A stretch of DNA of 64,000 bases. Source: Promethearchaeota archaeon. GTDB taxonomy: Archaea; Asgardarchaeota; Lokiarchaeia; Sigyniarchaeales; SOKP01. Shown piece by piece: positions 1 to 21,107 of the stretch. Made by a program: the position numbers and the translations under genes. The notes under the pieces are model-generated. The model did not search any database, had not been told where the DNA came from, and was given only the letters and a program-made list of their open reading frames with translations. Location of the stretch: positions 62,001-126,000 of the forward strand of contig JAUWGH010000006.1 in the NCBI GenBank assembly GCA_030606485.1. Direction: 5' to 3'. The first letter of the stretch is position 1. The number at the start of each line of letters is the position of its first letter.

Positions 1-156
1 TAAGATAATCCTTCTCTTTATTTTTCTTTGATATTGAACTCACAATTTTCACCTATAATATGATCTTTTAAATTAATTTAATTAAATTTCTTGTTAAGAT
101 TTAAATAAATATTAATTATACAAAAAAATAATTTTCCTATTTTTTTCTCAAATTTT

Positions 157-19962: not shown

Positions 19963-20436
19963 GTGAATGAAAAAGGAATAAAAATTAAGAAACTTCATGA
20001 TTTATTAGAAATCAATCAATTTTCTGCTCCAAAAGCTTTAAATACTAGATTGATGTTAATAATTTTAAATAATAAAAAAATTATGAGTGAAAAAAATATG
20101 AGTCAAAAAGTTGAATCAAAAATTGAAAGTGTTTTAACTGAAATTCAGAAAGTTAAAATTTTCAATTTGGTTAGATATGTTTCAAAAAACACTTGTGAGC
20201 GAGTTTGTCCTGAAATCTTAGATCTGCTTTTAAATAGTGAAAAAGGAAAGTTAAAAAGCAACTTAGGTAAAAGTATATTTCATTTACAGCGAGTAGAAAG
20301 ACTTAACTCAACTATTGGTTTAGAAAGATTAATTGAAGCAGGATTATTAGTTGATACTGATGGACTTCTCAAAATTTTAGAATCATCTAAGCAAGATGCA
20401 AAAGACTTAGCAAGTGAAATAAGAGAAATTCTCTAA
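19963..20436 (+). CDS. Hypothetical helical protein
   Basis: A 157-aa (GTG start) or shorter frame. Alternative ATG starts lie at 20053, 20083 and 20098. The second half is predicted all-helical (KIFNLVRYVSKNTCERVCPEILDLLL, then a LERLIEAGLL segment) without a recognisable family motif. Two cysteines five residues apart (CERVC) are the only notable feature. It is followed by a T-rich stretch and then the CDC48-N-like gene on the same strand 92 nt on. The upstream start is uncertain, so the N-terminal 40 residues may be untranslated. Confidence 0.5.
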   Translation: MNEKGIKIKKLHDLLEINQFSAPKALNTRLMLIILNNKKIMSEKNMSQKVESKIESVLTEIQKVKIFNLVRYVSKNTCERVCPEILDLLLNSEKGKLKSNLGKSIFHLQRVERLNSTIGLERLIEAGLLVDTDGLLKILESSKQDAKDLASEIREIL

Positions 20437-20528: not shown

Positions 20529-21107
20529 ATGAGTATTGAAATGTTTCAGGGCTTTAATGAACAAATATCAGTTTTAGTTTCTCCTGTTAGATTTGATACA
20601 TTTTCTTCATCTAGTTTTTGCGAACTAAAAATAAAAAGTTCTGAGCAAATTAATCTAAATAAAGGCGATTTTATTAAAATTTTTGGAAAAAAAAGGGCAA
20701 CCGTATGCAAGATTAAAAAAATCTCATATGGCTATAAAGATAATAATATATGCCTTCCATATAAGATAAGAAATAAGTATGGTATTAATCTTAATGATTT
20801 CATTCGAATTCAAACTTTTCCTAAAAAGACTGCTAAATATGTTAAGTTAACTCCAGTAGATTTAGATTTTAAACCAACAAAAAAAGTTATAAAATTTATA
20901 AGAAAGAAGCTTTTAGACATGCCATTGGTAAAAAATGATATAATATTAATCAATATTGGTTTTAAAAGACAAATTGATTTTGAGGTTTTGAATATTCAAC
21001 CCACAAGTCCTGCACAAATATCTACAGGAACAGTTATTGATATGGTTTTGTCATATCATCAAGAAGAGAAAATTAAGGAAAAACTTATTTTGACTCTGAC
21101 GATTTAA
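20529..21107 (+). CDS. Free-standing CDC48 N-domain-like protein (double-psi barrel, no AAA ATPase)
   Basis: 192 aa that track the whole N-terminal domain of CDC48/p97/VAT. Residues 10-90 fit the double-psi barrel Nn half: an SPVR start, NLNKGDFIKIFGKKRATVCKI, then NNICLPYKIRNKYGINLNDFIRIQ. Residues 95-190 fit the four-stranded Nc half: KYVKLTPVDLDF, KLLDMPLVKNDIILI, then FEVLNIQPTSPAQISTGTVID. No AAA+ module follows, and the frame ends at a clean stop. In eukaryotes, stand-alone relatives of this fold include Ufd1. It could be a substrate or cofactor-binding adaptor for a Cdc48/VAT unfoldase. It overlaps the convergent WD40 gene by 4 nt. Confidence 0.75.
   Translation: MSIEMFQGFNEQISVLVSPVRFDTFSSSSFCELKIKSSEQINLNKGDFIKIFGKKRATVCKIKKISYGYKDNNICLPYKIRNKYGINLNDFIRIQTFPKKTAKYVKLTPVDLDFKPTKKVIKFIRKKLLDMPLVKNDIILINIGFKRQIDFEVLNIQPTSPAQISTGTVIDMVLSYHQEEKIKEKLILTLTI

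Follow-up and report, generated by a model that had tools for sequence, protein, structure and literature searches.

A Cdc48 N-domain protein without ATPase domains in one genus of Lokiarchaeia

Introduction

Eukaryotic Ufd1 shares the fold of the Cdc48 N-domain and serves apart from the motor. How Cdc48 came by its adaptors is among the unsettled questions about the rise of eukaryotes. A short gene in a Lokiarchaeia genome bears on this question because its product resembles a Cdc48 N-domain and then stops. Is the protein a decaying piece of a cdc48 gene, an archaeal counterpart of Ufd1, or a separate protein that has put the N-domain to use on its own? A 2026 paper (PMC13328587) credits Asgard archaea with Cdc48, the 20S proteasome, and a primitive ubiquitin cascade, and its relevant passages name no archaeal adaptors. 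Full-text searches of the open literature turned up no account of Asgard proteins that consist of a stand-alone Cdc48 N-domain.

Reading Frame and Domain Content of P0001

The window analysed here is a 64,000-nucleotide stretch of contig JAUWGH010000006.1 from a Promethearchaeota archaeon, and the protein under study is referred to as P0001 (Table 1). Translation probably starts at M5 rather than at the first ATG, because an orthologue with 90% identity (G016) has GGAGTATTGAAATG at the M5 position and lacks the upstream ATG, and AAAGGAG lies shortly ahead of its second ATG. The M5 start is common to the relatives compared.

Sequence profiles place both halves of the Cdc48 N-domain in P0001. 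Pfam CDC48_2, which describes the Nc subdomain, matches residues 123-171 (E 4.2e-5) with 23.6 bits, exceeding the curated cut-off of 22.4. CDC48_N, which describes Nn, matches residues 36-96 (E 9.8e-5) with 22.9 bits, below its cut-off of 35.1. The NCBIfam model TIGR01243 (CDC48) aligns residues 36-175 to model positions 24-162 of 733 (E 2.5e-11), and the restriction of the match to this part of the model indicates that P0001 contains the N-domain alone. Against PDB sequences, phmmer pairs residues 29-171 with the p97 N-domain (E 2.6e-7), and profile-profile comparison of the P0001 family with Loki Cdc48 N-domains gives E 2e-17. Residues 1-28 have no detectable Cdc48 likeness. No D1 or D2 AAA domain is present in P0001, and a tblastn search with Cdc48 D1/D2 over 7 kb (~3 kb on each side of the gene) detected no AAA remnant (best E 5.2). 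AlphaFold models were of low confidence, with pLDDT 37 for full-length P0001 with three orthologues and 41 for the core, each from four near-identical alignment rows; for the core, Foldseek gave no match under E 0.08, an uninformative outcome at this model quality. As judged from profiles rather than from a model, P0001 is thus a complete CDC48 N-domain (Nn plus Nc) without an ATPase, which bears out the initial annotation of a stand-alone N-domain.

P0001 shares its subdomain order and length, over residues ~29-175, with the N-domains of archaeal Cdc48/VAT and p97 (PF02359 plus PF02933; PDB 1cz4, 5epp). Unlike these proteins, it lacks the D1 and D2 ATPases, the YxDIGG linker, and most Nn signature residues, and it has a family-specific N-terminal segment and C-terminal tail.

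Table 1. Features of the P0001 locus, in window coordinates.
Feature	Position	Strand	Details
5' end of full-length Cdc48 (745 aa, third paralogue, ...SLYG)	1..52	-	Gene left of window
Co-directional small protein, 157 aa, family unrecognised	19963..20436	+	Directly upstream of P0001 gene
P0001, CDC48 N-domain protein without ATPase	20529..21107	+	ORF, 192 aa, ATG to TAA
Probable true start codon of P0001 (M5)	20541..20543	+	188 aa if used
Nn subdomain, residues 29-98, double-psi beta-barrel by homology	20613..20822	+	Pfam, PDB phmmer
Nc subdomain, residues 100-174	20826..21050	+	CDC48_2 above cut-off
Family-specific C-terminal tail SYHQEEKIKEKLILTLTI, 18 residues	21051..21104	+	Alignment
Convergent WD40 protein, 313 aa	21104..22045	-	4-base overlap with 3' end of P0001 gene

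Conservation and Gene Neighbourhood

Orthologues of P0001 are found in all five genomes of the genus in the data set (G000, G015 at 99% identity, G014 at 98%, G016 at 90%, and G017 at 53%, the last value taken over a copy truncated at a contig end). Relative to G000, the dN/dS of the gene is 0.13-0.18 (Nei-Gojobori), out to the 53% orthologue. The value of 0.65 between G015 and G014 comes from near-identical copies with 2 synonymous changes and is uninformative. The P0001 gene is a genuine conserved gene under purifying selection and not a chance frame. The P0001 family is limited to this genus. The remaining 78 Lokiarchaeia genomes yielded no orthologue, and a profile of the family together with L052, a stand-alone N-domain of genome G013, recovered no further Lokiarchaeia member, with scores dropping from 207 bits to 116 at full-length Cdc48s.

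The neighbours of the gene are metabolic genes, the convergent WD40 gene, and the small gene of unrecognised family. The WD40 gene and the gene next to it (204 aa) stay beside the P0001 gene in all five genomes, and the upstream 157-aa gene is also found in G014, G015, and G016. None of these neighbours ties the P0001 gene directly to Cdc48 or ubiquitin genes.

A full-length Cdc48 gene, the third paralogue of the genome, lies just 20.5 kb from the P0001 gene. Its proximity would fit a recent truncation, which the initial annotation named as grounds for refutation, or a decaying cdc48 fragment with no function of its own. This origin is exceedingly improbable, being ruled out by conservation and selection. 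Identity to the genome's own Cdc48s is at most ~26-31%; the frames of the five orthologues are intact, one being cut by the contig end; and the low dN/dS relative to G000 is accompanied by retained synteny. Neither the missing AAA remnant nor the conservation of a new tail fits a fragment in decay.

Retained and Lost Residues

For comparison, 55 Asgard Cdc48 N-domains, mostly from Lokiarchaeia, provided 51 columns with at least 70% conservation. P0001 retains 12 of the 16 conserved columns in Nc and 9 of the 35 in Nn (Fisher p 0.0017). The Nn signatures DxGRxIxRID, the WPxYPxD loop, and RIDxxxRxN are largely gone, whereas the stand-alone N-domains of genus g7 preserve far more of the Nn signature residues. 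Retention of Nc with loss of most conserved Nn residues would be expected if constraints imposed by the attached motor have been relaxed. Where Cdc48 has the linker to the D1 ATPase, the P0001 family has a tail of the form ...IKExxILTLT[I/M], whose end is kept in the 53% orthologue as IKEDIILTLTM.

In a manual alignment, K61 and K63 of P0001 coincide with what we take to be I70 and L72 of the p97 pocket. Eukaryotic UBX-type binding is therefore unlikely in P0001.

The P0001 family also carries a net charge of +15 to +18, which makes its members the most basic N-domains of the set. With this charge, a stem branch that reaches 3.8 changes per site in a tree of 81 N-domains, and adjoining genes that are mostly metabolic, the protein may have been exapted to an unrelated job with no tie to Cdc48; its basic double-psi barrel might, for example, bind nucleic acids or metabolites. 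We rate this as unlikely, since the Cdc48 N-domains of these archaea are themselves basic (~+10) and the Nc half has been retained.

Relationship to Ufd1

The UT3 domain of Ufd1 (PF24842; PDB 1zc1, 2yuj) uses the Cdc48-N fold apart from the motor. UT3 binds ubiquitin (PMC5559722). An archaeal counterpart of Ufd1 would be a UT3-type protein of shared Ufd1 ancestry that recruits Ub-like chains to Cdc48. Several observations invite this comparison. The P0001 stretch YVKLTPVDLDF (residues 104-114; [YF]VK[LI]TP.D.DF in the family) resembles FVKLEPQSVDF of yeast Ufd1, the two sharing VK[LI]xP...DF, and LP at residues 76-77 of P0001 recalls the YLP of Ufd1. With a two-sequence Ufd1 profile, for which the human sequence was checked against PDB 9yrc_H, members of the P0001 family rank on top (20.5 and 18.5 bits) and fill most of the next ranks, and the best Cdc48 scores 17.7. 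Pfam UFD1_N2 matches P0001 with E 0.0085 and 16.5 bits, under its curated cut-off of 37.

The likeness, striking by eye, does not stand clearly above that of Cdc48 N-domains in profile tests. The margin in the Ufd1 ranking is slim, and UFD1_N2 weakly matches 9 of 25 N-domain rows, P0001 family members among them. In profile-profile comparison, the P0001 family matches Ufd1 with E 3.6e-5, which is no better than Cdc48 N-domains do, versus 2.2e-17 for Cdc48-N. The LP pair belongs to the common grammar of the barrel. P0001, which ends at 192 residues, has neither an SHP motif nor an Npl4-binding C-terminus, and no Npl4 was found in the source genome. Together with the restriction to a single genus, these differences make a Ufd1 counterpart improbable.

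Possible Role of P0001

The source genome encodes a Ub-like protein of 84 aa ending in AGGI (C10:752621), an E2-like protein, five JAB-domain frames, five proteasome-family genes (20S subunits), and three Cdc48s ending in FFV, FYK, and LYG, of which FYK and LYG are HbYX-type. With Ub-like, E2, JAB, and proteasome genes and Cdc48s all present, delivery of clients to Cdc48 and 20S is plausible.

The reading that we prefer, tentatively and as having slightly less than an even chance, is that P0001 is a functional, motor-free adaptor or competitor derived from a Cdc48 N-domain by duplication and separation. The sequences establish which domain this is, that the ATPase and the linker are gone, that the gene is conserved under purifying selection, and that the Nc core has been kept while most Nn signature residues have not; the rest of the scheme is conditional. 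An N-domain would have been duplicated and separated from a Cdc48 gene, followed by fast divergence. The Nc half and the groove between the N and C halves may bind a partner otherwise met by the Cdc48 N-domain, whether this is a substrate or cofactor or else a Ub-like tag. P0001 might then hand this partner to one of the three Cdc48 motors, or compete for it. Such an action, and a tie to Cdc48, 20S, and the Ub-like system, would follow by analogy from the fold, from the precedent of Ufd1 (PMC5559722), and from the neighbours of other stand-alone N-domains. Counted against an adaptor are the gene neighbours, which include no Cdc48 or ubiquitin genes, the one-genus distribution, K61 and K63, and the low-confidence models.

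That P0001 has kept its Nc core and no longer has the covalent linker would also suit a dominant-negative protein that damps Cdc48, either by occupying its cofactors and substrates or by docking on D1 in place of the resident N-domain. The N-domain of VAT is reported to be autoinhibitory (PMC5559722), which lends this alternative some appeal. The most conserved Nn residues of Cdc48, some of which possibly contact D1, are largely lost from P0001, which argues against D1 docking, and we regard a dominant-negative role as rather unlikely.

Stand-Alone N-Domains Across Asgard Archaea

The adaptor reading gains context from a census in which Lokiarchaeia and other Asgard genomes were searched with P0001 or CDC48_N; all architecture counts are to be taken as "at least". 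Single N-domains without an ATPase, and in this respect like P0001, comprise at least five proteins of g7 (L064-L068, 171-186 aa) and L052 (167 aa). Unlike P0001, the g7 proteins branch with another Cdc48 paralogue. The genes of L064 and L066-L068 abut TPR genes and that of L052 a JAB gene, whereas the P0001 gene adjoins neither. At least one protein (L050) has tandem N-domains without an ATPase, at least two (L074 and L047) join the N-domain to a C-terminus labelled winged-helix-like by eye (the C-termini are related, E 4e-6), and at least one (L049) carries an extra region. Assembly gaps are present in L051, L052 (outside the N gene), and L083; L071 ends near a contig end, L081 adjoins a frameshifted cdc48, and L069 and L070 appear broken. 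Three scans of viral contigs for Cdc48 relatives returned AAA genes and no N-domain.

The tree of 81 N-domains requires several origins of stand-alone proteins. With so long a stem, the P0001 family points to no particular Cdc48 paralogue as its parent. A single clade of all Asgard stand-alone N-domains was rejected by the AU test (p-AU 3e-14), as was a clade of the P0001 family with the g7 proteins (p-AU 0.009). A joint origin of the P0001 family and L052, both on long branches, was not rejected (AU p 0.55). Since stand-alone N-domains do not form one lineage, P0001 is not the single forerunner of Ufd1. The initial annotation had entertained a forerunner of Ufd1-type adaptors, a proposal that, as a single forerunner, also fails on the one-genus distribution of the family and on its Ufd1 score, no better than that of Cdc48 N-domains.

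These loci suggest that the Cdc48 N-domain has been repeatedly cut loose from its ATPase and re-used in Asgard archaea, much as in eukaryotic Ufd1. They supply concrete proteins for tests of adaptor origins, some of which adjoin or are fused to JAB, Roadblock, vWA, or TPR parts. A broader proposal, for which we see a rather low probability, is that the P0001 family belongs to a set of archaeal Cdc48-N adaptors, several in number and each of separate origin, that would follow the logic of Ufd1 and bring Ub-like-tagged clients to Cdc48 in a pre-eukaryotic Ub-like/Cdc48/20S pathway. The nearest contextual hint of Ub-like degradation comes from L052, a different stand-alone gene, because a JAB/MPN-domain gene follows it 11 bp downstream (L052:203-1341, minus strand). 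Genome G013 has ~9 JAB genes, so this adjacency could be due to chance. The JAB gene has an HSH...SGID motif that resembles a metal site, with a spacing that falls short of canonical JAMM by one residue.

Other arrangements were noted during the census. In three genomes of g7, the N-domain gene (L064, L066, L067, L068) abuts or overlaps the TPR gene, and a probable membrane protein adjoins. Two genomes of P0001's own genus encode an N-domain fused to Roadblock/LC7 (L072:2049-3011, minus strand; L073:2210-3163, plus strand); the Roadblock call rests on Pfam for L072, with which L073 groups in the tree. Several Asgard lineages outside Lokiarchaeia have proteins of ~440 aa that combine an N-terminal CDC48_N-like barrel with vWA (L076-L079, from G108, G114, G085, and G135), and the barrel of one of them (L078:2661-3998, plus strand) scores 35.7 bits, above the cut-off. 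Proteins with the N-domain and a single AAA ring (N-D1, 463-485 aa) are found at L042, L044, L046, and L048, the first three of which cluster in genus g8 with a Cdc48 cut short at a contig end. In L075 (715-1776, plus strand), three tandem CDC48_N barrels are followed by hydrophobic, probably membrane-spanning segments.
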